From: Spirosoma endbachense
GTDB lineage: Bacteria; Bacteroidota; Bacteroidia; Cytophagales; Spirosomataceae
Assembly: GCF_010233585.1 (NCBI RefSeq)
Contig: NZ_CP045997.1
Coordinates: forward strand, 2,817,424 to 2,881,423
Direction: 5' to 3'
Length of the DNA: 64,000 nucleotides
Shown: positions 21,207 to 38,777 of the stretch, one piece after another
Layout of the letters: each line of letters begins with the position of its first letter
Numbering within the stretch: position 1 is the stretch's first letter
The notes under the pieces: generated by a model
The model's input: the letters and a program-made list of their open reading frames with translations, nothing else
Told to the model about the DNA's origin: nothing
Databases searched by the model: none
Made by a program: the position numbers and the translations under genes

Positions 21207-22199
21207 TTAACCAACCACGATCGCATCCTCTGGCAAACGCATATGCTCCAGATACGTCAGGTTGTTGAGCGTTGTATGGGCGATCTGCTGCATGGCTTCA
21301 CGAGTAAAAAAGCCCTGGTGCGACGTTACGAGCACATTTGGAGCATGCGTTAGCGCATCCAGATCGGCATCTGGCAAAGGGGTTGCAGACCAGTCACTGA
21401 AAAAGTAATCATCCTCCAGTTCGTATACATCCATGCCCAATGCGCCCAGTTGACCCGTTTGTAGTGCCATTAGCACGGCGGGCGTATCCAGCAAACTCCC
21501 CCGACTAGTATTGACCAAATACGCCCCCCGTTTCATATGCGACAAGGCCGCAGCATCAATCAGATGATAGGTTTCGGGGGTGAGCGGGCAGTGCAGCGAG
21601 ATGATATCGGCTTCCGACAGCAATTCGTTCAAGGGTAGGTATTCGACGCCAAGCTGCTGTAATAACGCCGAGCGTACCTTATCATACGCCAGTACGCGAC
21701 ACCCGAAACCGAGCATGATCCGGGCGAAAGCCATACCAATCCTGCCAGTCCCAATTATTCCGATCCGCTTACCATAGAGATCAAATCCCATTAAGCCATC
21801 GAGCGTAAAGTTGTTCTTTTTAGTACGTTGATAGGCAATATGAGTCTTTCTGTTCAGTGCCATTAGTAGCGCAACCGCATGCTCAGCAACGGCGTGGGGC
21901 GAATAGGTGGGTACGCGTAGAATACGAATGCCGAACTCCTGAGCCGCCGGTATATCGACCTGATTGTAGCCCGTGCAGCGCAGTGCGGCTAACTGAACAC
22001 CGTTTCGCATGAGAATCTCAAGCGTGGGCCGGCTGAGGTCGTCGTTTACAAATACACATATAGCCTGATAACCCGTTGCGAGATGAGCTGTTTCGGGCGT
22101 GAGCGTCTCGTGGAAAAACGTCAGTTGATGTCGGTCATTATTGGCCGCTTCCAGAAACGGTTGTTCGTAGGAATGGCAGCTAAAAAAGGCGATTTTCAT
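21207..22199 (-). CDS. ldhA: D-lactate dehydrogenase (2-hydroxyacid dehydrogenase family)
   Basis: About 330 residues from the ATG at 22199; the four-codon-longer start at 22211 lies within the preceding gene. The NAD-binding motif GTGRIG lies near 152, and the catalytic residues are an Arg in VNTSRGSLLDT, a Glu in VYELED and a His in TSHQGFF, as in D-LDH of the LdhA type, which reduces pyruvate to D-lactate with NADH. It overlaps the stop of the small upstream gene, so the pair is translationally coupled. The unit is preceded by an FNR-like dyad at 22698, which suits a fermentation enzyme used when oxygen is low. Confidence 0.9.
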   Translation of the reverse strand: MKIAFFSCHSYEQPFLEAANNDRHQLTFFHETLTPETAHLATGYQAICVFVNDDLSRPTLEILMRNGVQLAALRCTGYNQVDIPAAQEFGIRILRVPTYSPHAVAEHAVALLMALNRKTHIAYQRTKKNNFTLDGLMGFDLYGKRIGIIGTGRIGMAFARIMLGFGCRVLAYDKVRSALLQQLGVEYLPLNELLSEADIISLHCPLTPETYHLIDAAALSHMKRGAYLVNTSRGSLLDTPAVLMALQTGQLGALGMDVYELEDDYFFSDWSATPLPDADLDALTHAPNVLVTSHQGFFTREAMQQIAHTTLNNLTYLEHMRLPEDAIVVG

Positions 22200-22203
22200 A
22201 GCG

Positions 22204-22617
22204 TTAGGCAATTTGGTTAGAGGAGTCGTACGTCGTCAGCCAGCATAATTTTGCCGTCGTCTGACTCAGGAAGATTTCAGTATCGGTCGGCCAGGTGAGC
22301 GTTTGTTCGTTCATGAGCAGGTAATCGTACGACCGTAACAGTACGTGCATTTTGATCGCCAGTTGAGGAGATGAAAAAAGTGTCTCTGCTTTTAGCCTGC
22401 TCAGTTGTGGCAGCATATCCAGCCAATGTTCGAGTCGGGATTCGGCCTGCTGTTTAGCCGCCCGAAACGTCTCCTTGTTGAGCACAGCACATTCCGCGAT
22501 GTCATACGGATGCACGACCGTCAGATAGAGTGCTTTATCTGGATTAGATTCCAGCCAACGACGCAGGACAAGAGCTGAGTCGACCGAGCAATCTGTAGAA
22601 AAAAAAGCGGTTTTCAT
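22204..22617 (-). CDS. Small cytoplasmic protein of unknown function, possibly UspA-like fold
   Basis: The product is 137 residues with no signal peptide. An N-terminal beta strand MKTAFFSTDC, helix SALVLRRWLES and strand LYLTVVHPYD suggest the Rossmann-like layout of universal stress proteins, but the G-2x-G-9x-G(S/T) ATP motif is absent, so this is a weak guess. The stop overlaps the start of ldhA, so the two are made from one message. A role in redox or stress control of fermentation would be speculation. Confidence 0.65.
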   Translation of the reverse strand: MKTAFFSTDCSVDSALVLRRWLESNPDKALYLTVVHPYDIAECAVLNKETFRAAKQQAESRLEHWLDMLPQLSRLKAETLFSSPQLAIKMHVLLRSYDYLLMNEQTLTWPTDTEIFLSQTTAKLCWLTTYDSSNQIA

Positions 22618-22697
22618 GGCGGCTATCTGGAAATACTTGACCGTTCAAAACTAGTTTACCCAATGGCTATATTCTATGAGCGGGCTTAGGCATCGAC

Positions 22698-22711
22698 CTG
22701 ATAATCATCAT
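22698..22711. promoter_or_regulatory. FNR/FixK-type dyad CTGAT-AATC-ATCAT
   Basis: TGA-N6-TCA dyad centred 87 bp upstream of the small gene preceding ldhA, overlapping the stop of the alcohol dehydrogenase gene. It keeps the TGAT-N4-ATCA core of the FNR/FixK consensus. One of eight such sites in the low-oxygen block; function is inferred. Confidence 0.5.
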
Positions 22712-23736
22712 TGCATATCGAGCACAACCCGCCCATCTACCCGACCTGCCTTCAAGTCATTTAGCACCTTATTAATGGCATCCAGACGCTCGGTATGATA
22801 GTGTACTTTCACTTTACCTTCAGCCGCCAATGCCAGACTCTCGACCAAATCCTGGCGCGTTCCAACGATTGACCCTCTAATCGTTTTGCGATTCAGGGTT
22901 ACGTCGAATATGTTCAAATCGAAGTCGCCGGGGGGTAAGCCAACCAATGCCAGCGTACCATGTCGGCGTAACATCGCTACGCCCTGCGCGAAAGCAGATC
23001 GCGAAACGGCGGTCACCAACACACCCTGCGCTCCGTCAATTTGATCATGGACAATAGCCACGGCGTCTTCCTCTGCGGCATTGATAACCAGATCAGCGCC
23101 TACGGCTTTGGCTAATTGCAGTTTATCATCGCTAATGTCGACGGCCACAACGTGCATTCCCATTGCTTTTGCATACTGAACGGCCAGATGACCCAGTCCA
23201 CCGATCCCTGAAATAACGACCCATTCGCCGGGACGAACTTCCGTTTCTTTAAGACCTTTATAAACGGTTACACCAGCACACAAAATGGGCGCAGCGTCGA
23301 GAAACGACAGCGAATCCGGGATCTTCCCAACATAATTAGCATCGGCCAGAACATAGTCGGCATAACTTCCCTGTACCGAATAGCCCGTATTCTGTTGAGA
23401 ATGGCACAAGGTTTCCCAGCCCGTATAGCAGTATTCGCAGTGGCCACAGGCAGAATAGAGCCAGGGTACGCCTACCCGATCCCCTTCGCGAATGTTTGTT
23501 ACGCCTGCCCCAATCGCTACGACTGTGCCAACGCCCTCGTGACCCGGCACTAATGGTAAGGTAGCTTTAACGGGCCAGTCGCCATCGATTGCGTGTAAAT
23601 CGGTATGACAAACACCACAGGCGGCCACTTTAATCAATAATTGACCTGGGCCTACAGCGGGTACAGGTAGCTGTTCAATCTGTAATGGCTGACCATACGC
23701 ATGGAGAACTGCGGCTTTCATTGTTGACGGAATCAT
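22708..23736 (-). CDS. adhP: Zinc-dependent alcohol dehydrogenase, AdhP/AdhA type
   Basis: About 342 residues from the ATG at 23736; an ATG five codons later at 23721 is equally possible. Catalytic zinc ligands are in CGVCHTDLHA and GHEGVG, and the structural zinc is held by the four Cys of CGHCEYCYTGWETLC. The Rossmann motif GIGGLGHLAVQYAK follows near 175. The family interconverts ethanol and acetaldehyde with NAD. It sits between the regulator gene and the lactate dehydrogenase unit on the same strand and has an FNR-like dyad 63 bp upstream, fitting anaerobic induction. Confidence 0.9.
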   Translation of the reverse strand: MIPSTMKAAVLHAYGQPLQIEQLPVPAVGPGQLLIKVAACGVCHTDLHAIDGDWPVKATLPLVPGHEGVGTVVAIGAGVTNIREGDRVGVPWLYSACGHCEYCYTGWETLCHSQQNTGYSVQGSYADYVLADANYVGKIPDSLSFLDAAPILCAGVTVYKGLKETEVRPGEWVVISGIGGLGHLAVQYAKAMGMHVVAVDISDDKLQLAKAVGADLVINAAEEDAVAIVHDQIDGAQGVLVTAVSRSAFAQGVAMLRRHGTLALVGLPPGDFDLNIFDVTLNRKTIRGSIVGTRQDLVESLALAAEGKVKVHYHTERLDAINKVLNDLKAGRVDGRVVLDMQ

Positions 23737-23792
23737 ATCGGAGTAGTAGGTAAGTGATGACACAAACCTAGGGATACGCAGAACCATTGGCT

Positions 23793-23806
23793 ATGAGAAT
23801 TATCAC
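23793..23806. promoter_or_regulatory. FNR/FixK-type dyad ATGAG-AATT-ATCAC
   Basis: TGA-N6-TCA dyad centred 63 bp upstream of the adhP start at 23736. The half-sites TGAG and ATCA fit an FNR/CRP-type regulator. Function inferred from position and from the matching sites elsewhere in the block. Confidence 0.5.
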
Positions 23807-23857
23807 TCTCTTTACAGACGCTCATCATAGTTCAAATGCCAGCACAACGAACCAGAT

Positions 23858-23998: not shown

Positions 23999-25102
23999 CT
24001 ACCAGTTGGCCCGGCGCAACTTATCGGGTTGCAACACGCGAATACCCGACCCGACCAGTTCAATCAACCCATCCTGCTTGAACTCACTCAGTGTGCGAAT
24101 CAATGACTCGGTCGCTGTACCAACTACCGATGCCAGGTCATCCCGCGAGAGTTGAATCAAGCTTTGTGGATCACGGTCCAATGACTCGGCCCGACTTGTC
24201 GGGTCAGCGGCATGTTTTTCATAAAGTCGCAGTAGTGCATCGGCCACCCGTCGACGCAATGAGCTATAAGCCATGGCTACCAGTTGTTTCTCCTTTTCAC
24301 TGACTCGCCCAGCCAGTAACTGAATGAACTGCTGGCTCACTTCATTATTGGCCAGCAACAATTGCTTAAATTCCTCATTGGGAATATAAACTAGTTCTGA
24401 ATCTTCCAGCACGACGGCAGAATCCGTATAGTCTACATTTTCAAGTAAGGCCAGATAGCCAAAAAATTCGCCAGGATTATAGAATCCAGTAATCAGTTCC
24501 TTGCCATCAGCATTGCTCCGGACAGTCTTGATTTTACCTGATTTCAGGAAATATAGCCGGGTCGGGTCGTCGCCTTCCGTGTAGATATACTGCTTTTTTC
24601 GTACCGAGTGAACCTTACGACCCGTTAATAAACTTTCCAGACTTCCCGACTGTCGTGCCTGGTCTAAAAATTCCGCCGAATCGTTGGTTACAGAGCGATC
24701 GTCTTCCGATTCCTGATACTGTGGCCCAACATGCTGGAACCGGTTGAGTCGCCCTTCAATAGCGCTGAGCAATTCTGATTCATCAAAGGGTTTTGTCAGA
24801 TAATCGTCGGCACCCAGCTCCATGCCTTTCCGGAAGTCGGTTCGCTCGGTTTTGGCCGTCAGGAAAATAAACGGAATACCGGACAGATTCGGGTTTTTAT
24901 TAAAAATATGCAACACACCATACCCATCAAGTACGGGCATCATGATGTCACAAATGACCAGATCAGGCCTGGAAGCTAAGGCTTTCTCTACACCTGCTTT
25001 CCCATTTTCAGCCGTGTGTACAGTATAGCCGGTTAATTCGAGAATTTCGGCGGTATTTTCACGGATGGCGTCGTTATCCTCAATCAGCAGGATCGTTTTC
25101 AT
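23999..25102 (-). CDS. Receiver-CRP/FNR fusion response regulator
   Basis: The product is 367 residues. Residues 1-120 are a receiver with phospho-acceptor D52 in ICDIMMP and the conserved Lys in LTKPFD. Residues about 155-270 form a cNMP-binding-like beta roll (GEFFGYLALL) and about 280-350 an HTH_Crp domain. The recognition helix GTATESLIRTL has E332 and R336, spaced like the Glu and Arg that contact TGA half-sites in CRP and FNR. The only cysteine is C51, so there is no FNR-type Fe-S cluster; the signal should come by phosphorylation. The start lies inside the 3' end of the PAS kinase gene (23-bp overlap), so that kinase is the likely partner. Best candidate for control of the cbb3 block. 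Confidence 0.9.
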   Translation of the reverse strand: MKTILLIEDNDAIRENTAEILELTGYTVHTAENGKAGVEKALASRPDLVICDIMMPVLDGYGVLHIFNKNPNLSGIPFIFLTAKTERTDFRKGMELGADDYLTKPFDESELLSAIEGRLNRFQHVGPQYQESEDDRSVTNDSAEFLDQARQSGSLESLLTGRKVHSVRKKQYIYTEGDDPTRLYFLKSGKIKTVRSNADGKELITGFYNPGEFFGYLALLENVDYTDSAVVLEDSELVYIPNEEFKQLLLANNEVSQQFIQLLAGRVSEKEKQLVAMAYSSLRRRVADALLRLYEKHAADPTSRAESLDRDPQSLIQLSRDDLASVVGTATESLIRTLSEFKQDGLIELVGSGIRVLQPDKLRRANW

Positions 25103-26696
25103 ACGGTAATGTTAAGGTTACGATTGTTCCGATGTTCAATTCGCTCCGGAGAGAGACGGTGCCTCCCATCAGGTCGATGTATCGGGCTACGATGTGCAGG
25201 CCAAGGCCAGTACCAGGTTTATTGGCCGCATTTTTAGCCCGGAAGAAGCGTTCGAATAAGTGTTCCTGATCGTCTGGCGAAATACCAATACCCTGATCCG
25301 TTATGGTTAATGTTATCAGCGTATCGGCGCATTCGCCCCGCACGGTAACAATCGATCCCGCATCGGAATACTTAATGGCGTTGGAAAGCAGATTTACGAT
25401 CACCTTTCTGAGTAGCGACGGATCAAGCCAGACCCGATCCGGGCAGTCAATATCGGGTTGAATTGTCTGTCCGGGTTTGAGCATACCCTGCATCTCGCCC
25501 ATAACGTCCTGAATAAGTTTTGACAGGTCGACGGCCACTGGCCTGGCCTCAATTTTACCCTCTTCGAGCCTGCCAACCGACAAAAACTCTTCCAGAATAT
25601 CGTTGAGGTGATTAACCGACGACCGGATACGTTGCAGGTGTTTCTGGCGTTTATCCTGTTGATCGTTGTCGGCGTATTTTTCAATCAGGGTTGCCGAGGT
25701 GAGGATGGTTGTCAGTGGCGTACGAAATTCGTGTGAGGCCATCGATACAAAGCGTGATTTCAGTTCGCCCAGTTCGCGCTCAGCTGTCAATGCTTTGTCG
25801 AGTTCATCTTTCGACTGCTGGAGTTGTTCGAGCGTATTCATGAGCGCATGAGTGCGTTCTGCCACTTTCTGTTCCAGCTCAACGTTGAGCCGTTCGATGC
25901 GGTCGCGATGGGCCAGCAGTTCCCGTTCCGCTTCTTTTTTTAAGGTAATGTCAATGATGTAGGCAACGGCATAGAGTTCATTATCCAGCCGAAAATAGCT
26001 AAGGCTAATTTCAACCGGAAACACCGAACCATCCTTCCGGCGCGCATGCAGATCGCGATTATGCCCCATCGCTCTGACTTGTGGATTATCGGCAAACGAC
26101 TGCCGGAGACGCTCATGATACTGGCTCACATCGGTCGGCACGAGCACCTCTATTGGCTGCCCCAGAAGTTCATCATCGGGGTAGCCAAACAGCTTCCTGG
26201 CCAGTTTATTGACCGACACGATCCTGCCCCGCTGGTCAGAAACGATGATGCCAATAGTGGCGTGGGTAAATACGGCTTCGTAGCGCTGAACGCTCTGGAT
26301 TAGTTCCTGCTCGGCCTGATGGAGCCGTCTCTGGTTGGTCAGTCGTACCAAAAAATAAGCGTTATGCTCGTCAGTAACGGGCATAATAACCAGCCGCCCC
26401 CAGAATCGTGTACCATCCTGACTACTCTGTTCGGTCTCCTGCTCATAATGACCCGCCTGTTTAACTTCATGAATTAAATTAACCCGCTGCTCATCCGTCT
26501 GCGGAGCAATCAGCAACGATTTAGACCAGATGGGGTCATCCAGCAACGTCTGTTCCGAAAGAAATCCCAGCATACGAACGCCCACCTGATTGATCCGTAT
26601 AAACCGTTCATTTTCGGTATCGTATACGCCAATAAAATCGTCGCTCTGTTCAAAAAGCAGGTCGATGAGGGTATTTGTGGGCTGGTTTGAAAGCAT
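25080..26696 (-). CDS. Soluble PAS-PAS histidine kinase, possible FixL-like oxygen sensor
   Basis: The product is 538 residues with no membrane helix. Two PAS domains (about 8-125 and 138-252) lead through a coiled coil to HisKA with H322 in MASHEFRTPL and HATPase_c with DQGIGI and GTGLGLHIV. In the second PAS, aligned from memory with Bradyrhizobium FixL, H194 and R214 match the haem-ligating His200 and oxygen-contacting Arg220 with the same 20-residue spacing. Many non-haem PAS domains have a His there too, so haem is a hypothesis. It overlaps the receiver-CRP gene and is divergent from a thioredoxin-like gene across a spacer with an FNR-like dyad, which would allow autoregulation. Confidence 0.9.
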   Translation of the reverse strand: MLSNQPTNTLIDLLFEQSDDFIGVYDTENERFIRINQVGVRMLGFLSEQTLLDDPIWSKSLLIAPQTDEQRVNLIHEVKQAGHYEQETEQSSQDGTRFWGRLVIMPVTDEHNAYFLVRLTNQRRLHQAEQELIQSVQRYEAVFTHATIGIIVSDQRGRIVSVNKLARKLFGYPDDELLGQPIEVLVPTDVSQYHERLRQSFADNPQVRAMGHNRDLHARRKDGSVFPVEISLSYFRLDNELYAVAYIIDITLKKEAERELLAHRDRIERLNVELEQKVAERTHALMNTLEQLQQSKDELDKALTAERELGELKSRFVSMASHEFRTPLTTILTSATLIEKYADNDQQDKRQKHLQRIRSSVNHLNDILEEFLSVGRLEEGKIEARPVAVDLSKLIQDVMGEMQGMLKPGQTIQPDIDCPDRVWLDPSLLRKVIVNLLSNAIKYSDAGSIVTVRGECADTLITLTITDQGIGISPDDQEHLFERFFRAKNAANKPGTGLGLHIVARYIDLMGGTVSLRSELNIGTIVTLTLPYENDPAD

Positions 26697-26793
26697 AAAT
26701 AAAAATGGCTTGGGTTATGAGCCGTACCTAAATGGAGATTTGCACTAAGCTAACATGAGTTTAAAGCAAATCTGTCGAAAATCAGCCTTTTTT

Positions 26794-26807
26794 TTGACCG
26801 GTATCAT
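26794..26807. promoter_or_regulatory. FNR/FixK-type dyad TTGAC-CGGT-ATCAT
   Basis: TGA-N6-TCA dyad in the divergent spacer, centred 104 bp from the PAS kinase start and 87 bp from the thioredoxin-like start at 26888. It would allow the receiver-CRP protein to regulate its own operon. Inferred. Confidence 0.55.
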
Positions 26808-26887: not shown

Positions 26888-27214
26888 ATGAAACTTAACA
26901 TGCCTGATCCAATTCTGATCCCTGCTAAAACGACGGTATTGCTGGTGTTTCTACCATCGGTATCCAGGCGCGAGGCTATTGGCCAGCCAGCGTCGTTAAT
27001 AAAATTTGTTCAGTCACTACAACAACAGGTCGGCGAGTCGGTTCGTGTCTTAAGGATCGACGAACCTATGCATCCGGAAGTAGTGCGGAGCTTCGCAATA
27101 ACCCACTTACCTGCATTTGTTCTGGTGCAGCAAGGCGTTGAGTTATGGCGGTATGAAGGCGCGTCGGATGAAAATTCATTCTCAGCCGTTTCTCAACGGT
27201 TACTCCATAATTAA
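26888..27214 (+). CDS. Thioredoxin-fold protein without the CXXC motif
   Basis: The product is 108 residues (start at 26888 or at the ATG at 26900). The pattern VLLVFLPSVS, then VRVLRIDEPMHPEVVRSFAI, then the cis-Pro segment THLPAFVLVQQGVELWRYEG, matches the thioredoxin fold. The redox site that should follow the first strand is absent, so it cannot be an ordinary disulfide reductase. It is divergent from the PAS kinase and convergent with the TauE-like gene, inside the oxygen-regulated block. A binding or chaperone role, perhaps in oxidase assembly, is only a guess. Confidence 0.75.
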   Translation: MKLNMPDPILIPAKTTVLLVFLPSVSRREAIGQPASLIKFVQSLQQQVGESVRVLRIDEPMHPEVVRSFAITHLPAFVLVQQGVELWRYEGASDENSFSAVSQRLLHN

Positions 27215-27254: not shown

Positions 27255-27977
27255 TTAATGGACTTTTGGTGTCAACTGGGCCGTTCGTCCATGACAGAGC
27301 GGTATCTCACCGCCTTCCTTAACATTTCTAACCGGATTGTACACCCCGCGAATCAGGAGCAACAGGCCCAGTAGTACAGTCACAACGGGCATAAATACTG
27401 TAAACCGACTGCGTAGCCTTGCCGGGAACAAATCAGGAAGGAAACGTACCGTAACAAGCGCCGGAATTGTTCCTAGTCCAAACAATACCATATAAGCCAC
27501 TCCAGTAACCGCATTGCTTGTTGTAATGGCTCCTGTCAGAGCTACATATACAAATCCGCAGGGGAGCAAGCCATTTAAAAATCCCAGCCACATAAAAGCC
27601 CGCAGCGTAGGTTGGTGCAGAAAACGGGTCATTGGCTGAACGATCCAATGTGTCGCACGGCTCATAGTAAGCCCCGGAAATAGACCCCGGTTAACCAATG
27701 TCCAAAACAACAGAAACAGGCCAGCCACAATAGAAACGGGGCGCTGTAATCCTGCGAGCCATAACCCCTCGCCGATAGAACCCATCAGCAGACCCAGTCC
27801 GGCATAGGCCGTTACGCGTCCGCTATGATACAGACCTATGGCCAACCCACGCTGTGAACGAGCCAGTCGCCCAACGGGTAAAGCCATAGCCAATGGCCCG
27901 CACATACCAACGCAGTGCAGGCTGCCGACTACACCCGTCGCCAGGGCTACTGTCCACCAGATCGGTTGTAGATTCAT
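27255..27977 (-). CDS. TauE/SafE-like membrane protein of the cbb3 cluster
   Basis: The product is 240 residues with about six helices. It begins with WWTVALATGVVGSLHCVGMCGPLAMALPVG, whose GSLHCVGMCGP string (one His, two Cys) marks the urease-accessory/sulfite-exporter-like proteins found beside cbb3 oxidase genes. These are thought to act in metal handling or oxidase maturation. It is the last gene of the ccoS-NO-Q-P-G-H run and begins 9 bp after ccoH ends, so it is very likely co-transcribed. The transported species is not shown by sequence. Confidence 0.8.
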   Translation of the reverse strand: MNLQPIWWTVALATGVVGSLHCVGMCGPLAMALPVGRLARSQRGLAIGLYHSGRVTAYAGLGLLMGSIGEGLWLAGLQRPVSIVAGLFLLFWTLVNRGLFPGLTMSRATHWIVQPMTRFLHQPTLRAFMWLGFLNGLLPCGFVYVALTGAITTSNAVTGVAYMVLFGLGTIPALVTVRFLPDLFPARLRSRFTVFMPVVTVLLGLLLLIRGVYNPVRNVKEGGEIPLCHGRTAQLTPKVH

Positions 27978-27985
27978 GGGGGTGG

Positions 27986-28411
27986 TTATAAAGACAGTTT
28001 CTGTTCGGTGTAATAGTCGCGATGCCCGTCAGACCAGGTAAATTGCACGCGCCAATAACCCCGCGCCAGCCTGGCCGTTGAAATAACCTGCCGACCAGCG
28101 TGACTGGCGGGAAGATGCACGCTAAAATCCATCCGGTTGTCAGATGGACGATAAAAATGAATTTCACCCTTGCGGAGCGTTGTAGGCAGCACAAAGATCA
28201 GCTGTTGTTTGTCGGCCTGATAGTCCATAGCAACAGGTTCGTGCTGACTGGCATGAACAATTCGATTTATCTGTTGCTGGTAAGCAATTTCGGTCTGATA
28301 ATAATCATCCCGTACCAGATCGATGTGCTGACGGCACATCTGGTAAATCATCGTGCCAATGAATCCGGCAAACAGGACAAAGGTGAGTATGATTGCTTTC
28401 CCCCAGTTCAT
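27986..28411 (-). CDS. ccoH: FixH/CcoH-type cbb3 oxidase assembly protein
   Basis: About 141 residues from the ATG at 28411; a longer frame to 28468 lacks support. A single N-terminal helix (NWGKAIILTFVLFAGFIGTM) is followed by QHIDLVRDDYYQTEIAYQQQI, the segment shared by FixH proteins, and a periplasmic beta domain of about 90 residues. CcoH is a small membrane protein needed for stable cbb3 oxidase. It lies between ccoG and the TauE-like gene; a 14-bp imperfect hairpin (28436-28471) fills the 57-bp spacer after ccoG. Confidence 0.85.
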   Translation of the reverse strand: MNWGKAIILTFVLFAGFIGTMIYQMCRQHIDLVRDDYYQTEIAYQQQINRIVHASQHEPVAMDYQADKQQLIFVLPTTLRKGEIHFYRPSDNRMDFSVHLPASHAGRQVISTARLARGYWRVQFTWSDGHRDYYTEQKLSL

Positions 28412-28435
28412 AGTGTTAATGTGTGAAAGGATGAA

Positions 28436-28471
28436 TGAGCGAAAGGGTGAAAAATACCACCCATTCACTCA
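28436..28471. repeat. Imperfect inverted repeat between ccoG and ccoH
   Basis: Arms 28436-28449 and 28458-28471 pair at 12 of 14 positions with an 8-nt A-rich loop. It covers the ccoG stop and ends 25 bp before the ccoH start, so it could set relative expression or message stability of the two genes. Confidence 0.5.
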
Positions 28472-29917
28472 ATGGACGGGCCCTAAAAAGGTCGTTTCCA
28501 GTTGTTTTACGACCTGATTGCCGACTAAAACGTCAACCTGAAGTGGCGTGCTGTTTTGGCGGATACTTTTTTCGGGCAGGTTAATAAAGAACATTCCCTT
28601 TGTTAGTTCGCCTGCCGGAACGGTGGAAAGAGGCTGAACAAAAATCAGCTTAGCGTCAGACCGACTGAGTCGGAAACGCACGGGAATTGGCCGGTACGTT
28701 TTGTTCATAATCTCCACCAGATAGAGGTTCGACACTTGTTTGCCGGTTTCGCGCTGAAACAGTTGCCCCGGTGCCCGAAGTATTGTCACATCCAGCGATG
28801 GGCGACTGACGAGCAGAAACCCCAGAATACCCAGTAAAACGATAAGTACCCCGCTATAGGCCATTATCCGGCTTGTGAACCGAAACGGTTTACCCTGTTC
28901 AATACCCTGTTGCGAATCCATCCGGATCAGCCCGAGTGGCCGATTGATCTTGTGCATTACCTCGTTGCAGGCATCAACACACAGGGTACAATTGATGCAC
29001 TCCAATTGTGTACCGTTGCGAATATCGATACCGGCAGGGCAAACCTGTACGCACAGTTTACAGTCGATGCAGTCGCCTTTGGCGATTGGCAGTGGGTAAA
29101 ACGTATTTTGTATAGCTGTGCTCCTGACTCCCCGCTCCTCACCCCGCACCTTCTTTCCACGCGGCTCACCCCGAATGAAATCATAGGCAACAATCAACGA
29201 ATTTTTATCCAGCAAAACACCCTGTAATCGTCCATAAGGGCAGATCGTGGTACAGACAATTTCACGGAGCTGGGCAAAAACAAGGTAGAAAACACCCGTG
29301 AATAGCCATATCGATGCAAGGCCGCCTATGTGTGCATTCGGGTTATCAGTAATAAGCGTCAGCCACTGGTCACGGCCAATGAGATACGCCAGGAATGTGT
29401 TACTGATAGCGAATGAAATCAGCAAAAAGACACCATGCTTCAGGCTTTTTTTAGCTACTTTTTCGCCTGTCCAGGGGCTGGTATCGAGCCGTTTGCGGGC
29501 GTTATAGTCGCCCTCGATCCAGACTTCGATTTTACGAAAAACCATTTCCATAAAAATCGTCTGTGGACAAGCCCAGCCGCACCATACCCGTCCATACACA
29601 ACGGTGAAGAGGGTAACAAATACGATAAAAGTAACCAGCCCAAAAGCAAGCAGATAAAAATCCTGCGGCCAGAATGATACACCAAAAAAGATAAACCGGC
29701 GTTCAAGCACGTTGAATAGAAACAGTGGATGCCCATCCACCCATACGAAGGGCCCGGCAAACAACGCAACCAGCAGTACCAGTGCTACCACTGTGCGCCA
29801 ACGGGTAAACCGACCCGTAACACTACGAGGGTATAACCACCGCCGACCACCTGCCGAATCGGTCGTTGGCAGTTCATTGCGAAAATTGGATGAAGAAGGT
29901 ACTACGCTAGTGTTCAT
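28469..29917 (-). CDS. ccoG: CcoG/FixG, polyferredoxin of cbb3 oxidase maturation
   Basis: About 482 residues from the ATG at 29917; a TTG at 29929 overlapping the ccoP stop is possible. Helices lie near 45-65, 85-110, 155-180, 195-220 and 335-355. Two [4Fe-4S] motifs are seen, CIDCKLCVQVCPAG and CINCTLCVDACNEV, plus the CGWACPQTIFMEMVFRKIE and CPYGRLQGVLLDKNS segments. The C-terminal part is an Ig-like periplasmic domain. CcoG acts as a copper reductase during delivery of copper to CcoN. Between GEPRGKK and GDCIDC there is a low-complexity Arg/Glu/Gly insert. Confidence 0.92.
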   Translation of the reverse strand: MNTSVVPSSSNFRNELPTTDSAGGRRWLYPRSVTGRFTRWRTVVALVLLVALFAGPFVWVDGHPLFLFNVLERRFIFFGVSFWPQDFYLLAFGLVTFIVFVTLFTVVYGRVWCGWACPQTIFMEMVFRKIEVWIEGDYNARKRLDTSPWTGEKVAKKSLKHGVFLLISFAISNTFLAYLIGRDQWLTLITDNPNAHIGGLASIWLFTGVFYLVFAQLREIVCTTICPYGRLQGVLLDKNSLIVAYDFIRGEPRGKKVRGEERGVRSTAIQNTFYPLPIAKGDCIDCKLCVQVCPAGIDIRNGTQLECINCTLCVDACNEVMHKINRPLGLIRMDSQQGIEQGKPFRFTSRIMAYSGVLIVLLGILGFLLVSRPSLDVTILRAPGQLFQRETGKQVSNLYLVEIMNKTYRPIPVRFRLSRSDAKLIFVQPLSTVPAGELTKGMFFINLPEKSIRQNSTPLQVDVLVGNQVVKQLETTFLGPVH

Positions 29918-29925
29918 TCGGTTGA

Positions 29926-30765
29926 TCAATTACGTAGTGCCACCGGTACAGCACCTGCTATTTTCTCACCCTGCGGCTCTTTCGCGCCAGCCGGATTTGA
30001 CCCTTGCAGCGACAGAATATAGCTGGCAACCTGTTGTACCTGAAGCGGATTAAGCTGTTTTTTCCAGGAAATCATTCCCTTTTCGGGTACGCCCTCGGTA
30101 ATGGTGTGAAAAACAGCCTTAACGTCACCGCCATGCAGCCAGTACGCATCGGTCAGGTTCGGGCCGACTTTACCCTCGGCATTGGCTCCGTGACAGGCCA
30201 CGCAGTATTGGGTATAAAGCACTTTTCCTGATTCAACGCCCTTCGCATCTTTTAGCAGGGTTACAGTATTTTCATTAATGGAACCTGCCACTTTCTTGAT
30301 GTATTCCTCCCGTTGCTGGTCGGCAATAGCCATTTCCTGCGTGTACTCCTGCGCCATGATGTCGCCCGATCCGATGACATGAAAGACGAACAGGTAGATC
30401 ACCGAAAAGACAATTGTGCTGTAAAACAGCCACATAAACCAGGGTGGCGTTGGATTGTCGAGTTCGGCAATGCCATCGTAGGCATGCTCCATCACCAGCT
30501 CTTTTTCCTGGCTCAGTGCATGCAGGCCCGATAGGCGTTGCCATAACGAACGGGTATCGACAGGTTTCTTAACAGATTCGGGTTCTAGGGCTTTTTTGAG
30601 AATGAGCAACAGATAGAATGCGACCAGCCCAATTAATACCATACCAACCAGCACGATCACGCCCAGGATGAGCATCACTAAATCCTGACCCGACGAGATG
30701 GCCCAGATTGATTGAGCCGGTTTTAGGGAAAGAAGACCGCTATCGATTAAAATAAATAGGTTCAT
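29926..30765 (-). CDS. ccoP: Cytochrome c oxidase cbb3-type subunit III (CcoP)
   Basis: The product is 279 residues. A first helix lies near 30-55, the CcoP N-terminal segment with DGIAELDNPTPPWFMWLFY and its helix near 105-130, and a single c-type haem domain with CVACHGANAEGKVGPNLTD and Met ligand in GMISWKKQLNP. Proteobacterial CcoP has two haem domains; one is common in Bacteroidota. The first helix with a long cytoplasmic loop is an addition also seen in that phylum. It passes electrons to the CcoO part of the oxidase. Confidence 0.92.
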   Translation of the reverse strand: MNLFILIDSGLLSLKPAQSIWAISSGQDLVMLILGVIVLVGMVLIGLVAFYLLLILKKALEPESVKKPVDTRSLWQRLSGLHALSQEKELVMEHAYDGIAELDNPTPPWFMWLFYSTIVFSVIYLFVFHVIGSGDIMAQEYTQEMAIADQQREEYIKKVAGSINENTVTLLKDAKGVESGKVLYTQYCVACHGANAEGKVGPNLTDAYWLHGGDVKAVFHTITEGVPEKGMISWKKQLNPLQVQQVASYILSLQGSNPAGAKEPQGEKIAGAVPVALRN

Positions 30766-30780
30766 CGGTGGAGAGTGGTG

Positions 30781-30951
30781 TTAATCGGTGGAGGAATCAT
30801 CGAGCGGCATCCGACCCATTTGCCGGATGTGGGCTTTATCGACCAGTAACAAATACAGGCCGACCAGCACAAAAAAACTTAAGAAGGTAACGAATGAGCC
30901 GACCATGTAGACGTCAGCGCCGGGAATTCTGGAGATGAATTGCTTGAACAT
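30781..30951 (-). CDS. ccoQ: CcoQ-like small membrane subunit
   Basis: The product is 56 residues from the ATG at 30951; the upstream part of the frame reads into the preceding spacer. One helix (VGSFVTFLSFFVLVGLYLLLV) is followed by a short charged tail. Position between ccoNO and ccoP and the single-helix plan are those of CcoQ, a stabilising subunit. The sequence is poorly conserved in general, so the call rests mainly on context. Confidence 0.7.
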   Translation of the reverse strand: MFKQFISRIPGADVYMVGSFVTFLSFFVLVGLYLLLVDKAHIRQMGRMPLDDSSTD

Positions 30952-31038
30952 AATTTCCTGATTGAAAGGAACGTATACTGACAGCCAGCCGTCTTTTGCT
31001 GAGCCGTTGTCAATCATTCCTTATTATCCATTGTTCAC

Positions 31039-33237
31039 TTATTTGCCTGACGGTTCCATTTTCCTGATATCCGTTCCGAGTCTCTGGAGGTAAGCGATCA
31101 GGGCCACGATCTCGCGGTCGGATTTTACGTTGATACCATCGTTAGCCAACTGACTACTTAGCTGTTGAGCCTGTTTCTGGAGGTCTTCGTTCGCGTAGGT
31201 AATGGTTACATCATCGTAGGGAACACCTACTTTTTGGAGGGCCTTTAGTTTATCCGACGTATTCGAGATGTCCAGTTTATTCGCTAGCAGCCACGGATAT
31301 GATGGCATAATGGACCCCGGCGACATCGACGTCGGATCACGCATGTGGTGATAATGCCAGGAGTTGGGGTATTTACCACCAATGCGGTGAAGATCAGGCC
31401 CGATGCGCTTGCTTCCCCACAAAAACGGGTGATCATACACAAACTCACCCGCTTTGGAGTACTCACCATAGCGCTCTGTTTCGCTGCGGAACGGCCTGAC
31501 CATCTGGCTATGGCAATTGACGCAGCCTTCCTTGATATAGAGGTCGCGGCCCTGTACTTCGAGGGCGGTATAGGGCTGCACAGACGCAATGGTCGGCACG
31601 TTGGAACTCACCATAAATGTTGGTACCAATTCGACCAGCGAACCAATCAGAATGACGATCAGCGAACCAATCAGCAACGGAATAGGCTTCCGCTCAAACC
31701 AGCGATGCCAGTAGGTATCGCTTCCGGTTGGCACATAGGCTTTCACCAGAGCGGGTGCTTCGGCGGGTTCGTTAGCAACCAGTTTTCCGGCGGCCATCGT
31801 CTTAAACAGGTTAAACGCCATCAGTATTGCCCCTAACAGATAGAACGTACCACCCACTGCCCGCATCTTGTGCATGGGTATCAACTGTAGGGTCGTTTCC
31901 AGAAAATTGGGATACTTCAGGACACCTTCGGGTGTAAACTCTTTCCACATCATCCCCTGCGTGAAGCCGGATATGTACATGGGAACGGCGTAAAACAAGA
32001 TGCCCAGGGTACCGATCCAGAAGTGAACGCCCATCAGTTTTCTGGAGTACAGCGGAGTACGATATACGCGCGGAATGAGCCAGTACAGAACAGCGAACGT
32101 CATAAACCCATTCCAGCCTAAGGCACCTACGTGCACGTGGGCAACGACCCAGTCGGTGAAGTGGGCAATGGCATTTACATTCTTGAGCGCAAGCATCGGC
32201 CCTTCAAACGTGGCCATACCATAGGCGGTAACGGCCACAACCATGAATTTCAGGATGGTATCTTCGCGTACCTTGTCCCAGGCTCCGCGCAGTGTCAGCA
32301 GCCCGTTGATCATACCACCCCACGACGGAGCAATGAGCATGATGGAGAACACAACACCCAGCGATTGCGCCCAGTCGGGCAAAGACGTATATAGTAAATG
32401 GTGTGGACCCGCCCAGATGTAGATAAAGATCAACGCCCAGAAGTGCAGAATTGATAATTTGTAGGAGTAAATAGGCCGGTTGGCCATCTTGGGCAAAAAG
32501 TAATACATCAGACCCAGAAAGGGCGTTGTCAGGAAGAATGCCACCGCATTATGACCGTACCACCACTGCACGAGCGCATCCTGCACTCCGGCATAGACGT
32601 AATAACTTTTGAATAAACTGACCGGCATCTCATACGAATTGACAATATGCAGAACGGCCACGGTTACGAATGTGGCAATGTAAAACCAGATAGCTACGTA
32701 AAGATGCCGCTCCCGACGTTTGATAATCGTACCGAACATATTTATGCCGAACACAACCCAGATCAGCGTAATGGCAATGTCGATTGGCCATTCAAGTTCT
32801 GCGTATTCGTGTGAGGTAGTCAACCCCAGAGGCAGCGTTATCGCAGCTGCCACAATAATGGCTTGCCAGCCCCAGAAGTGGATTTTACTCAGCAAATCGC
32901 TGAACATCCGGGCTTTGCAAAGTCGCTGCAGCGAGTAATAAACGCCCATAAAAATGGCGTTGCCGACGAAGGCGAAAATGACCGCGTTCGTATGCAGGGG
33001 TCGAATCCGGCCGAAGGTAGTGTACTGGTTGCCGAGGTTGGCCGATGGTGCAAATAACTGGCTGGCAATCAGTACACCCACCAGCATACCTACGATTCCC
33101 CAGATAATCGTAGCGATAGCAAAATTGCGAACCGTACGGTTATCGTAGTTGAAGTACTCCACGGCAGGAGCAGTTCCCTGCCCCAGAAGGGACCGGTCGG
33201 ACGAGATGATTGTGGGCGGTTTCTGCGAAACATTCAT
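31039..33237 (-). CDS. ccoNO: Fused cbb3-type cytochrome c oxidase subunits I and II (CcoN-CcoO)
   Basis: The product is 732 residues. Residues about 25-490 are CcoN with twelve helices; the haem and copper ligands are seen in RPLHTNAVIF, WWYGHNAVAFFLTTP, GPHHLLYT and VAHVHVGALGWNG. A short linker and helix (about 520-545) lead to the CcoO domain, with the haem c motif CVNCHSQMVRPFRSETERYG and a Met ligand in SMSPGSIMPSYPWL. The fusion is usual in Bacteroidota, whereas the two are separate in Proteobacteria. The enzyme is a high-affinity terminal oxidase for low oxygen. Confidence 0.96.
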   Translation of the reverse strand: MNVSQKPPTIISSDRSLLGQGTAPAVEYFNYDNRTVRNFAIATIIWGIVGMLVGVLIASQLFAPSANLGNQYTTFGRIRPLHTNAVIFAFVGNAIFMGVYYSLQRLCKARMFSDLLSKIHFWGWQAIIVAAAITLPLGLTTSHEYAELEWPIDIAITLIWVVFGINMFGTIIKRRERHLYVAIWFYIATFVTVAVLHIVNSYEMPVSLFKSYYVYAGVQDALVQWWYGHNAVAFFLTTPFLGLMYYFLPKMANRPIYSYKLSILHFWALIFIYIWAGPHHLLYTSLPDWAQSLGVVFSIMLIAPSWGGMINGLLTLRGAWDKVREDTILKFMVVAVTAYGMATFEGPMLALKNVNAIAHFTDWVVAHVHVGALGWNGFMTFAVLYWLIPRVYRTPLYSRKLMGVHFWIGTLGILFYAVPMYISGFTQGMMWKEFTPEGVLKYPNFLETTLQLIPMHKMRAVGGTFYLLGAILMAFNLFKTMAAGKLVANEPAEAPALVKAYVPTGSDTYWHRWFERKPIPLLIGSLIVILIGSLVELVPTFMVSSNVPTIASVQPYTALEVQGRDLYIKEGCVNCHSQMVRPFRSETERYGEYSKAGEFVYDHPFLWGSKRIGPDLHRIGGKYPNSWHYHHMRDPTSMSPGSIMPSYPWLLANKLDISNTSDKLKALQKVGVPYDDVTITYANEDLQKQAQQLSSQLANDGINVKSDREIVALIAYLQRLGTDIRKMEPSGK

Positions 33238-33252
33238 AGCGGTAACAGGCGG

Positions 33253-33420
33253 TTAAACGGTCGTATCCGTAGCGGTTGGTTCATTGTCATCAAGTAGTAT
33301 GCGCATGGAGGGCGTATATAAATCGTCTTGCTGACCCGTTCGTATCGACCACAGAAAAGCGCCGAGAAATCCCAGGGCCATCAGCAGGCTAATGCCAATC
33401 ATAAAAAAGATAATGTGCAT
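33253..33420 (-). CDS. ccoS: CcoS, cbb3 oxidase maturation protein
   Basis: The product is 55 residues from the ATG at 33420. A single helix (IGISLLMALGFLGAFLWSI) and the tail RTGQQDDLYTPSMRILLDD match CcoS, which is needed for insertion of redox cofactors into CcoN. It is the first gene of the operon, 15 bp before ccoNO. Two FNR-like dyads lie 80 and 128 bp upstream. Confidence 0.88.
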   Translation of the reverse strand: MHIIFFMIGISLLMALGFLGAFLWSIRTGQQDDLYTPSMRILLDDNEPTATDTTV

Positions 33421-33493
33421 ACCCCAAAGCGTTTGATGAGGCAAATGTGCGGAGGATCTGACCGGCCGTATATGAGATTTATCAGGGAAATGG

Positions 33494-33507
33494 CTGATAG
33501 AATTCAG
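33494..33507. promoter_or_regulatory. FNR/FixK-type dyad CTGAT-AGAA-TTCAG
   Basis: CTGA-N6-TCAG palindrome centred 80 bp upstream of ccoS. A second dyad follows 48 bp further up. Probably the promoter-proximal operator for the oxidase operon; inferred. Confidence 0.5.
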
Positions 33508-33541
33508 GATAATAAAGAGCTAATAAAACTCAATCGAAAAC

Positions 33542-33555
33542 CTGACAACCATCAG
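33542..33555. promoter_or_regulatory. FNR/FixK-type dyad CTGAC-AACC-ATCAG
   Basis: CTGA-N6-TCAG palindrome centred 128 bp from ccoS and 71 bp from the plus-strand gene at 33620, so it could serve either. It is nearly identical to the dyad at 38670 in the ccoI-hemN spacer (CTGAC-N4-ATCAG in both, and C before each). Confidence 0.55.
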
Positions 33556-36088: not shown

Positions 36089-38623
36089 TCAGGGCATTCT
36101 GGTAGGTTTCCATCGACTATATCCCCGCATACCCAACGTAGCAATCGCCAGCATGGTAGCCGAACTGATGGGCATGAGAATGGCGGCTACCACGGGCGAT
36201 AAGCTGCCCGTCAGCGCGTAGGATAAACCGACGAAGTTATACAGGAGTGAAATGCCAAAGCTGAACCGGATCAGACGCATTCCGAAACGGGTGTAGCGCA
36301 GCATATCAGGCAGTTGATTCAACGAAGATGCTTCCAGAATGGCATCGCTGGCAGGTGTGAACTGAATCGTGTCGTCGGTAACGGCCATGCCAACATCGGC
36401 CTGTTTCAGTGCTCCGGCATCGTTCAACCCATCGCCTACCATCAATACCCGCCGTCCCCGGACCTGTAGATGTTGAATAAACGCTAACTTCTCCTGTGGA
36501 CGGCAATTGAAATGCATCTGCCCGGCTTTGGGAAACCAATGTTTTAACTGCGTCTGAGCGGCTTTAGTATCGCCCGATAGCAGATAAAGCCGGTATGGCC
36601 CGCGCAAATTCTGTAGCATCGTATCAATTCCTGCCCGATAGTGAGAAGAAAAATGAAAACACCCCCGGTATATCTGCGCAATAGAAATATGGACCGTTGC
36701 TCCAGCGGGATCATCCGTATCAGTCGATGCGTTATAATCCAGATTGACGAAGGAGCGCGATCCGGCCTTTACAAACCAGCCATCGACGAGCCCCTGAACA
36801 CCATGTCCTGAAAATTCGGCAAATCCGTCAATAGAAAATGACTGACTATCTGCCAGATAAGCCGTCAGTTTGCGACTGAGCGGGTGGGCCGACTGACGAA
36901 CCAACGAGGCAATAAGTGCTCGTTCGTAGGCCGTTAATGGTTGCAAAAACGACTCCTGAACATCGTGTTGCCCCGTATTGGTCAGTGTACCGGTTTTATC
37001 AAAAACGATCGTGTCGCAGGCAGCCATTTGCTCAATTACGCCTGCGTTTTTCAGGTATAATTTCTGTTGGCTCAGCTTACGAAGCCCGCTGCCGAGGGCA
37101 AATGGATACGATAACGAAAGCGCACACGGGCAAGCGATGATAAGTACGGCCGTAAACGCATTGATGGCGCGCGACGGATCTTCATGATACCAGTACAGAC
37201 CGACCAACGTGGCAACCATAATGACCATCAGGGTAAAATACTTTCCGACGATGTCAGCAAAAGTGAGCATCCGGGATGAATTCCCTTTTCGGAAGGCATC
37301 GTTATTCCACAATTGGGTTAAGTAGCTTTGCGATACATCGCGAACAACCTCCAGCTCGATGGCTTCACCCAGTTGCTTGCCGCCTGCGTATACTAACGCG
37401 CCTGGTGTCTTCGCTTCTGGTTCCGATTCGCCGGTTACGAAACTATAATCGATCATGGCCTTGCCTTTGTAAAGAAGACCATCGGCTGGAATCAGTTCGT
37501 GATTACGTATGCGAATGCGGTCGCCCTTGCGAAGCTGGGATACGAGTACGATCTGCTCAGGAACAGAAGAAATAGGGTTTACGGTAAGAAACGAGGTATC
37601 TGGTGACTGCTGGGCAACCTTATCAATTGGCCCCTCCATCCCCTGCTCCGCTCTTCGCCCAAGTAGTGTCACGGCAAGCGGAAAATAGGATTTATAATCG
37701 CGCTCGAACGATAGAAAATCGTGGGTTCGTTGTTGAAACCACTTCCCACATAACAGGAAAAAGATCAAACCTGTCAGCGAATCGAAGTAGCCCGCACCCG
37801 CCAAAAACAGAACCTCGTAGGTGCCCCGAAAAAAAGCTACCAGAATACCCAGTAAAATAGGAAAGTCGATATTAATAATGTCTTTCTTCAGGCTTTTCCA
37901 GACGGATTCGAAATAGCCCGACGCGGAGTAGATTACGACCGGCAGAGCGAGCAGGATATTAAGAATACCAAACAACTGCCTGAACGATGGATCGTTCAGG
38001 CCAAGGTATTCAGGAAAACTGAACAGCATGATATTACCCGCGCAAAATCCGGCAACGGCCAGTCGGTATAATAGCGGCCGGTCCGATGGCTGTTGCTGCT
38101 CTTTAACGACATCATTGAGGCTGATCAGCGGTTCGTACCCAATGGAGCTGAGCAGTTCAACAAGCTGGCGCAGCGTTAGCTTATCGGGCTGGTAGGTAAA
38201 GTGAACCTGTTTTTTCAGGAAATCCACCCGTGACTGCTGAATGCCGGGATGTATTCGATAGAGGTGCTCAAGCAGCCACAGGCATGAGCTGCAATGAATG
38301 GTCGGAATGTAAAATGTAACTTTGGCAATGGCCTCATTTGAGAACTCCAGCAGTTGTGCTATGATATCCGGATGGTCCAGAAAGACAAGTCGCGATTGTT
38401 CTGATTGAGATTGATTACTGGCTTTGATCATATTACCTCGCCGAAGGCCATCTTCGCCAGATTCTATCGTATAATACTGGCAAAGCTGATGCTGGCTCAG
38501 AATAGTATACACCGTTTTGCAGCCTTCACAACAGAAGCGCTTGTCTTCGACTAGTATGTTATTTCCTGCACAATCGTTACCACAATGATAGCAACTGGTC
38601 GATGGAATCGTTGCTGTGCTCAT
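36089..38623 (-). CDS. ccoI: CcoI/FixI copper-transporting P-type ATPase
   Basis: About 844 residues from the ATG at 38623. The N-terminus carries a Cys-rich zinc-ribbon-like motif (CYHCGNDCAGN then CCEGCKTVY) and an HMA-like domain with THCSSCLW-type ligands (HCSSCLWLLEHL). Eight helices, the CPC transport site in ACPCALSLSYP, the phosphorylation site DKTGTLTN and the hinge GDGLNDAGAL follow. CcoI exports copper for the CuB centre of cbb3 oxidase. It is divergent from hemN across a 154-bp spacer with two FNR-like dyads. Confidence 0.94.
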   Translation of the reverse strand: MSTATIPSTSCYHCGNDCAGNNILVEDKRFCCEGCKTVYTILSQHQLCQYYTIESGEDGLRRGNMIKASNQSQSEQSRLVFLDHPDIIAQLLEFSNEAIAKVTFYIPTIHCSSCLWLLEHLYRIHPGIQQSRVDFLKKQVHFTYQPDKLTLRQLVELLSSIGYEPLISLNDVVKEQQQPSDRPLLYRLAVAGFCAGNIMLFSFPEYLGLNDPSFRQLFGILNILLALPVVIYSASGYFESVWKSLKKDIINIDFPILLGILVAFFRGTYEVLFLAGAGYFDSLTGLIFFLLCGKWFQQRTHDFLSFERDYKSYFPLAVTLLGRRAEQGMEGPIDKVAQQSPDTSFLTVNPISSVPEQIVLVSQLRKGDRIRIRNHELIPADGLLYKGKAMIDYSFVTGESEPEAKTPGALVYAGGKQLGEAIELEVVRDVSQSYLTQLWNNDAFRKGNSSRMLTFADIVGKYFTLMVIMVATLVGLYWYHEDPSRAINAFTAVLIIACPCALSLSYPFALGSGLRKLSQQKLYLKNAGVIEQMAACDTIVFDKTGTLTNTGQHDVQESFLQPLTAYERALIASLVRQSAHPLSRKLTAYLADSQSFSIDGFAEFSGHGVQGLVDGWFVKAGSRSFVNLDYNASTDTDDPAGATVHISIAQIYRGCFHFSSHYRAGIDTMLQNLRGPYRLYLLSGDTKAAQTQLKHWFPKAGQMHFNCRPQEKLAFIQHLQVRGRRVLMVGDGLNDAGALKQADVGMAVTDDTIQFTPASDAILEASSLNQLPDMLRYTRFGMRLIRFSFGISLLYNFVGLSYALTGSLSPVVAAILMPISSATMLAIATLGMRGYSRWKPTRMP

Positions 38624-38669
38624 ACCTCTGAATTTTGAAGCAAGTTGGCATGGTGTGGCTAGCCAAACC

Positions 38670-38683
38670 CTGACCAGCATCAG
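38670..38683. promoter_or_regulatory. FNR/FixK-type dyad CTGAC-CAGC-ATCAG
   Basis: CTGA-N6-TCAG palindrome centred 53 bp from the ccoI start and 101 bp from the hemN start. Nearly the same as the site at 33542 before the oxidase operon. Confidence 0.6.
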
Positions 38684-38691
38684 CCGTTGAC

Positions 38692-38705: not shown

Positions 38706-38777
38706 GGATTGACACCCATAACCTATCCAGTTTTGCAGGGAGCACAGGGGCCGACAAAACGGCTCCCTGAAACGACA

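Follow-up and report, generated by a model that had tools for sequence, protein, structure and literature searches.

Background

The cbb3 oxidase genes of rhizobia are controlled by a cascade of three proteins, in which FixL acts on FixJ, FixJ acts on the transcription of fixK, and FixK acts on the cbb3 genes. FixJ is a response regulator of the NarL/LuxR type with a LuxR-type helix-turn-helix (HTH) output. FNR senses through an iron-sulphur (Fe-S) cluster, for which it has an N-terminal Cys cluster and a further Cys before the IP of its roll; the cAMP-binding cassette of CRP carries Arg-Ser. Here we describe a locus within 64,000 nucleotides of Spirosoma endbachense DNA (contig NZ_CP045997.1, positions 2,817,424 to 2,881,423; hereafter the window), where a histidine kinase gene overlaps the gene of a regulator that joins a receiver to a CRP-type DNA-binding half, beside a cbb3 cluster. 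We conclude that this is probably an oxygen circuit in which a receiver is fused to a CRP-type activator, with an unexpectedly clear regulon signature.

The rhizobial FixL-FixJ-FixK cascade is described in PMC7020829 and PMC13327599. In Rhizobium leguminosarum, according to PMC7888657, the kinase hFixL works through an intermediate regulator, FxkR, toward FixK, which controls fixNOQP, and FnrN is a second sensor acting on anaeroboxes. In Bacillus, FNR is a CRP-family regulator downstream of the two-component system ResDE (PMC8510549). The Spirosoma locus resembles the FixL-FixJ-FixK cascade in having a haem-PAS-type kinase, a receiver and a predicted CRP-type activator of cbb3 genes. However, it places the receiver and the CRP-type DNA-binding part in one polypeptide, whereas the Fix system uses three proteins and a transcription step. 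FxkR and FixK, as presented in the text cited above, are also separate proteins joined by transcription, and ResDE and FNR of Bacillus are likewise separate. Stand-alone FNR-type proteins of Bacteroidota (for example in genome G150 and at locus L207) share the CRP fold with the Spirosoma regulator, and G150 has a near-identical recognition helix and the same tandem operator, but these proteins have N-terminal Cys, whereas the Spirosoma regulator lacks such Cys and has a receiver instead. Among the titles and abstract starts listed in a search of PMC, there was no description of a receiver-CRP regulator or of a Bacteroidota FixL. The response-regulator censuses of Galperin (2006, 2010), cited in PMC7020829, may include the receiver-CRP architecture.

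Results and discussion

A kinase paired with a receiver-CRP regulator

The regulator (23999..25102, minus strand, 367 residues) comprises, by its open reading frame (ORF) and Pfam matches, a receiver domain (Response_reg, residues 4-116, 24755..25093), a Cys-free roll of the type that binds cyclic nucleotides (cNMP_binding, residues 165-251, 24350..24610) and HTH_Crp_2 (residues 285-364, 24011..24250), all encoded on the minus strand. The residues of a response regulator are all present, namely the acidic pair E8/D9, the phospho-acceptor D52, T82 and K104. Features of the CRP/FNR superfamily are present as well, in the form of the cNMP-type roll and an HTH_Crp with an E-x3-R recognition helix (GTATESLIR, residues 328-336, 24095-24121, minus strand). 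In 123/123 aligned regulators D9, D52 and K104 are invariant, as are E332 and R336 of the recognition helix, with T or S at position 82 throughout. The sole Cys of the protein, C51 (codon 24950-24952), lies in the receiver adjoining D52, in a column that is Cys in 123/123 regulators; a thiol beside the phosphorylation site may give a second, redox input. The regulator has no FNR-type N-terminal Cys cluster, and V238 occupies, by eye, the second FNR Cys position, a column that is Cys in 7/123 relatives. The stretch in the place of the cAMP cassette reads YTDSA (by eye). Thus the domain composition, the single Cys and the lack of an FNR-type Fe-S ligand set, all claimed in a sequence-only reading of this DNA, were borne out. 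An AlphaFold model of the full-length regulator had a predicted template modelling score (pTM) of 0.56, with residues 132-142 below 50, so that the arrangement of the domains is uncertain, and no receiver-CRP structure was among the 50 Foldseek matches listed for it, all of which were CRP-family chains.

The sequence-only reading had also described this protein as FixJ and FixK in one. As an account of how the protein may work, the description stands; as an account of descent it does not, and origin from FixJ by way of the output domain was rejected because the output is a cNMP roll with HTH_Crp and not of the LuxR type. In evolutionary terms, the protein is better described as an FNR-like regulator that takes its input from a two-component receiver. 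The CRP half was compared with Bacteroidota FNR/CRP proteins alone; in a tree of CRP halves, a branch with support 100/99 separated the 50 receiver-CRP rows from the 32 rows of stand-alone FNR/CRP proteins.

The kinase (25080..26696, minus strand, 538 residues) has, by ORF and Pfam, the architecture PAS-PAS-HisKA-HATPase, with two PAS_9 stretches, HisKA at 313-380 and HATPase_c at 425-533, and the conserved H, N and G boxes are present; the phospho-acceptor is H322 (codon 25731-25733, minus strand). No stretch of transmembrane strength was found in it, the best 19-residue Kyte-Doolittle mean being 1.11 (means above 1.6 occur in 17/116 rows of the kinase family). The kinase and regulator ORFs overlap by 23 bp (25080-25102, both on the minus strand). 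Both ORFs lie where the sequence-only reading had placed them, and it had named a soluble PAS-PAS kinase with this overlap.

Architecture, conservation, pairing and the operator discussed below, including its position and association, were computed directly. We counted the regulator at E<=1e-40, a threshold that only full-length matches pass in the Spirosoma genome (a single 10.3-Mb contig), where receiver-only matches end near 1e-25. By this rule it is present in 38 of 247 sampled Bacteroidota genomes, all of them in the class of the window (38/61, against 0/186 outside). Since the family extends over 38/247 genomes with invariant receiver residues, the architecture goes beyond chance. Among the named genera that have it are Spirosoma, Hymenobacter, Larkinella, Fibrella, Rudanella, Runella and Mucilaginibacter, and the nearest named proteins are from Spirosoma. 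A set of 122 loci (2.37 Mb in total) was drawn from named genomes (80 loci) and sampled genomes (42 loci); the 80 are the best 80 of 391, which biases them to close relatives, and some genomes occur twice. At 115/122 loci the regulator has a related kinase no more than 400 bp upstream, with the exact 23-bp overlap in 56; no adjacent kinase was seen at 7/122, some of which lie at contig ends. When 20 regulator-bearing genomes were compared with the Spirosoma kinase, the best match was the adjacent kinase in 19 and lay about 13 kb off in one (G158). It is very probable, from this constancy of arrangement, that kinase and regulator form a cognate pair.

The Spirosoma genome also encodes a second receiver-CRP paralogue (locus L147, 6978500-6998400), which is 45% identical and has the recognition helix GASTETVIR. 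A kinase adjoins it, and the tandem operator described below is absent from its fetched 20 kb.

A probable tandem operator and the predicted circuit

The probable operator consists of two CRP-type dyads in tandem, TGA-N6-TCA-N10-TGA-N6-TCA, a layout first seen by eye at three promoters. Its extended consensus, TGAY-N4-RTCA, is FNR/FixK-like. The window holds two exact copies and seven at one mismatch or fewer, against 0.15 expected in first-order random sequence, and CRP-type dyads, to which the sequence-only reading referred only among its refuting conditions, are thus present. The exact copies lie upstream of ccoS-ccoNO (33473..33506) and between the divergent ccoI and hemN (38671..38704), the latter 8 bp and 22 bp, respectively, from mechanical starts that were possibly set too early. 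The region upstream of ccoS, shared with a divergent 141-residue ORF, has a second copy with one mismatch (33521..33554). Further copies with one mismatch stand between the kinase and divergent thioredoxin-fold genes, 94 and 98 bp from their starts (26773..26806), at a centre 76 bp upstream of a 137-residue ORF preceding ldhA (22677..22710), upstream of adhP (23794..23827) and 72 bp upstream of a 111-residue ORF preceding the universal stress protein gene, usp (41684..41717). The adhP copy is 24 bp from the mechanical start and about 90 bp from the internal ATG at which the AdhP model starts.

These seven sites are spread over six intergenic regions of a 19-kb cluster. When spacings of 0-25 between the dyads were scanned in the window, spacing 10 gave 7 sites and every other spacing at most 2. 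Across the whole genome there were 37 sites at one mismatch or fewer, compared with 18 for the reversed pattern, which served as the control for site counts; 7 of the 37 fall in the 19-kb cluster, where 0.07 are expected (Poisson, about 1e-12). A generic FNR box, TTGA-N6-TCAA, was rejected as the operator for its lack of selectivity (290 genome sites against 162 reversed).

Because three of the seven sites had served to define the pattern, the orthologous loci provide a better test. Exact sites in the 122 loci numbered 108 at spacing 10 (107 distinct sequences) and 27 at spacing 11, with 0-5 at each other spacing from 0 to 30. At one mismatch or fewer there were 206 sites in 82/122 loci (153 from the 80 named loci and 53 from the 42 sampled loci), 192 of which lie outside ORFs, although ORFs around the loci were called mechanically and both intergenic calls and operator distances are therefore approximate. 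Counted within 350 bp before gene starts, 33 operators precede the kinase, 22 the thioredoxin-fold gene, 21 ccoNO, 13 the 137-residue ORF, 11 ccoI and 10 ldhA, and others precede further genes. The median distance was 70-85 bp before the kinase, thioredoxin-fold, 137-residue-ORF and ldhA starts, being 74 bp for the 137-residue ORF. It is highly likely that the predicted targets make up a low-oxygen gene set, and the regulator itself quite likely binds the tandem operators. Since the dyad centres are 22 bp apart, or about two helical turns, two dimers would lie on one face of the DNA.

Four sites outside the cluster may be mentioned in passing. A phosphoketolase gene has an exact copy about 300 bp upstream (locus L185, 2781-2814), and an operator-like site lies about 300 bp upstream of an ORF with, by eye, a copper-ATPase-like start, near a PAS match (L186, 1571-1604). 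Two identical exact copies occur 70 kb apart, at 9215902 and 9285618 (L163 and L164), perhaps in a repeat.

Kinase, receiver-CRP protein and operator probably constitute a one-step low-oxygen circuit, at the place that FNR holds elsewhere. The signal, haem binding, phosphotransfer, DNA binding and sign of regulation are what we infer in the following scheme. As oxygen falls, the kinase, by way of its FixL-related PAS-B domain, would autophosphorylate at H322 and the phosphate would pass to D52 of the regulator. Phosphorylation of D52 would shift the CRP half to a DNA-binding state, and two regulator dimers would occupy the pair of TGA-N6-TCA dyads. The cbb3 oxidase, its copper ATPase, hemN and the genes for the universal stress protein and the alcohol and D-lactate dehydrogenases would be activated, and the kinase-regulator operon would activate itself through its own operator. 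The circuit would thereby stand in for the FNR-type regulator found beside cbb3 elsewhere in the class. If so, it adds to FNR and FixLJ-FixK another design of oxygen switch for cbb3, in which a short chain of phosphorylation leads from a FixL-type kinase to the operator in one step. The operator would also allow the low-oxygen regulon to be predicted in Spirosoma, Hymenobacter, Larkinella and their relatives, where most of the proteins have names such as 'response regulator'.

Several observations weigh against this circuit. Three promoters had supplied the pattern ahead of the count, so that 3 of the 7 cluster sites are not independent, and of the 37 genome sites about 30 are outside the cluster, many of them inside ORFs and background-like. 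No operator occurs in the flank at 40/122 loci, and 10 of the 38 regulator-bearing genomes, all of family f7, have no exact operator. A second receiver-CRP protein exists in the Spirosoma genome. In addition, the presence of FixO, found in 183/247 genomes, fails to separate regulator-bearing genomes from the rest of the class (33/38 against 18/23), and plain co-occurrence with cbb3 was rejected as a test for this reason.

The PAS-B sensor

In the second PAS domain of the kinase, PAS-B (25923..26315, minus strand), H194 (codon 26115-26117) takes the position of the haem ligand of Sinorhizobium meliloti FixL (SmFixL), and R214 (codon 26055-26057) that of its distal Arg. We take the proximal haem His to be H194 in SmFixL and H200 in BjFixL, and the distal Arg to be that of the FG-loop motif IIGxxR. 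S. meliloti FixL was also the best PDB sequence match of PAS-B, in an alignment with zero gaps; DosP and further FixL chains came next. When an AlphaFold model of the domain (predicted local distance difference test score, pLDDT, 94) was compared by Foldseek, ranks 1-25 were all haem PAS chains. About 108 residues within 21-131 of the model superposed at 1.6-1.7 A on BjFixL 154-264, and the offset of 133 at both ends places H194 at BjFixL 200 and R214 at 220; the title of one PDB entry among the Foldseek matches names R220A of BjFixL. By sequence match and by model, then, the kinase is FixL-related. The full motif IIGxxR is present in the kinases of 12 orthologous loci (12/115 adjacent kinases), which are likely haem sensors.

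In the Spirosoma kinase itself, however, the motif reads AMGHNR, with the hydrophobic residues lost and the Arg kept, which also counts against the circuit as drawn. The PAS-B matches and the orthologous loci with the full motif nevertheless give the label 'FixL-like' a firmer footing than the sequence-only reading had for it. Given the change from IIG to AMG, oxygen sensing by haem is a plausible function of this PAS-B, and we regard the chances for and against it in this strain as evenly balanced. The kinase and regulator could instead be a cognate pair on these same operators with an input other than haem-bound oxygen, such as redox state, a flavin, nitric oxide or a metabolite. This is the alternative that survives best, and we consider it quite possible, if not favoured: IIGxxR is absent from PAS-B of the Spirosoma lineage, and LOV and flavin adenine dinucleotide (FAD) PAS domains match the PAS-B model too, although they rank lower. 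Conservation argues for haem, since the ligand His is kept in 110/116 kinase rows (His and Arg together in 93/116) but is missing from 28 of 29 other PAS_9 matches of the same genome. Those 29 come from 33 PAS_9 matches, of which 30 were read, including PAS-B itself and PAS-A of the same kinase; His with Arg was seen in none of the 29 and His in one. The low-oxygen character of the targets also speaks for an oxygen input.

Relation to FNR-type regulators

We also examined whether the operators might be FNR boxes, so that a stand-alone FNR-like protein, or an ancestral FNR habit, would drive cbb3 while the receiver-CRP protein has another target or acts as a modulator. For this comparison, an FNR-type protein is a stand-alone match to the FNR of genome G150 (E<=1e-30, match starting at query residue <=12), and 'near cbb3' means within 25 kb of FixO. 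In 51 cbb3-bearing genomes, the protein near FixO was a receiver-CRP regulator in 14, an FNR-type protein in 24, both in none and neither in 13, a mutual exclusion that is confounded by family (f7 is mostly FNR-type) and to that extent weakens our case, although families f7 and f5 each hold both arrangements. All 20 of the FNR-type proteins read, out of the 24 near cbb3, have a C-x2-C pair, and a stricter FNR label (at least three Cys within the first 45 residues) splits this set.

The frequent presence of FNR-type proteins beside cbb3 (24/51 genomes) is one argument for such boxes. Two others likewise count against the receiver-CRP circuit. Genomes G150 and G017 have six and three operators, respectively, in the absence of a receiver-CRP regulator, and each encodes a stand-alone CRP protein with N-terminal Cys and a recognition helix of the same kind, which in G150 lies beside cbb3 and adjoins an operator. 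An operator alone is therefore no proof that the receiver-CRP protein is its binder. The Spirosoma genome, too, has a stand-alone FNR-like protein (L241) with an N-terminal Cys cluster (Cys 8, 13, 16 and 107 in the protein). However, the recognition helix of L241, GTTYETFFR, differs from that of the Spirosoma regulator, and its gene is 6 Mb from the cluster, whereas GTATESLIR of the regulator closely resembles GTATESTIR, the helix in the G150 FNR.

The operator also tracks the receiver-CRP regulator among genomes. Exact operators occur in 28/38 genomes with the regulator (130 sites, against 1 for the reversed control) and in 6/23 genomes of the class that lack it (14 sites, against 6 for the control; Fisher p 0.0005), and they are present in 12/12 genomes with a full-FixL-motif kinase. 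In genus g11, each of whose 14 genomes has FixO with an FNR-type protein near it, the operator is found in 4/4 genomes with the regulator (11 sites) but 1/10 without it (1 site; p 0.005). Moreover, 20/38 regulator-bearing genomes have no FNR-type match, and 17 of these 20 still have the operator. With these counts on the other side, it is unlikely that the operators serve FNR in the place of the receiver-CRP protein.

Since operator and recognition helix are common to the regulator and the stand-alone FNR-type proteins of its relatives, the class may offer a natural experiment in which the sensor was exchanged and the regulon kept. One ancient fusion of a receiver with a CRP/FNR protein, driven by FixL-type haem kinases, might have replaced Fe-S FNR as the master oxygen switch at cbb3 across the class with retention of the FNR tandem operators, a history to which we would give an even chance. 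If true, the regulon was conserved while its oxygen sensor changed, leaving a one-step circuit from FixL to the operator in which dimers pair 22 bp apart.

The receiver-CRP loci of family f7 (L142-L144, L146, L149, L151-L156 and L158) lie, in several cases, among universal stress protein genes. They come from 11 genomes, of which 10 lack the exact operator and one (G088) has one. The target set or the site may differ there, as f7 genomes are mostly without the exact operator.

Sign of regulation

The sign of the circuit could be reversed, such that it is the regulator without phosphate that binds, or that the targets are repressed through phosphorylation in air. A precedent for this comes from Rhodopseudomonas palustris, in which unphosphorylated FixJ is reported in PMC13327599 as a repressor of nitrogenase genes. 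The median operator position, 70-85 bp before several start codons, suits activation better, with the reservation that this distance is to the start codon and not to the transcription start. We consider reversal improbable, and activation rather than repression is what the regulator likely brings about. An ordinary general-stress regulator beside cbb3 by accident is most improbable, because, while ccoNO, ccoP or ccoG is in the fetched flank at only 37/122 loci (48/122 when ccoH, ccoI, the DsbD_2 gene and hemN are added, 73/122 with usp and ldhA) and several f7 loci have the stress-gene surroundings noted above, operators precede ccoS-ccoNO, ccoI/hemN and ldhA in several families and the Poisson chance of the seven clustered sites is very small.

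The cbb3 cluster and neighbouring genes

The full cbb3 set that had been said to adjoin the regulator was confirmed, with CcoNO, CcoP, CcoG, CcoH, CcoS, a CcoI-type ATPase and HemN. The cluster proper (27255..33444, minus strand) comprises genes for a DsbD_2-type protein, ccoH, ccoG, ccoP, a 78-residue ORF, a fused ccoNO and ccoS. The 78-residue ORF (30781-31017, minus strand) is ccoQ-like by its place only, and ccoS (33253-33444, minus strand; TIGR00847) completes the operon. Beyond it lie a heavy-metal P-type ATPase (36089..38680, minus strand; ATPase-cat_bd, HMA and E1-E2), which is called CcoI-type by place and domains, hemN for the oxygen-independent coproporphyrinogen III oxidase (38709..40142, plus strand; TIGR00538 over its cut-off) and usp (40397..41233, minus strand). 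On the other side of the regulator are the genes for an AdhP-type alcohol dehydrogenase (22708..23787, minus strand; NF006940 over its cut-off) and for a D-lactate-dehydrogenase-type 2-hydroxyacid dehydrogenase (ldhA-like; 21207..22211, minus strand), for which no NCBIfam model was over its cut-off. The 137-residue ORF that precedes the latter (22204-22617) has no Pfam match. The gene divergent from the kinase (26888..27214, plus strand) encodes a thioredoxin-fold protein without CxxC; it was rejected as a classical redox partner of C51, as CxxC occurs in 0/65 of its homologues and 35 of them are free of Cys.

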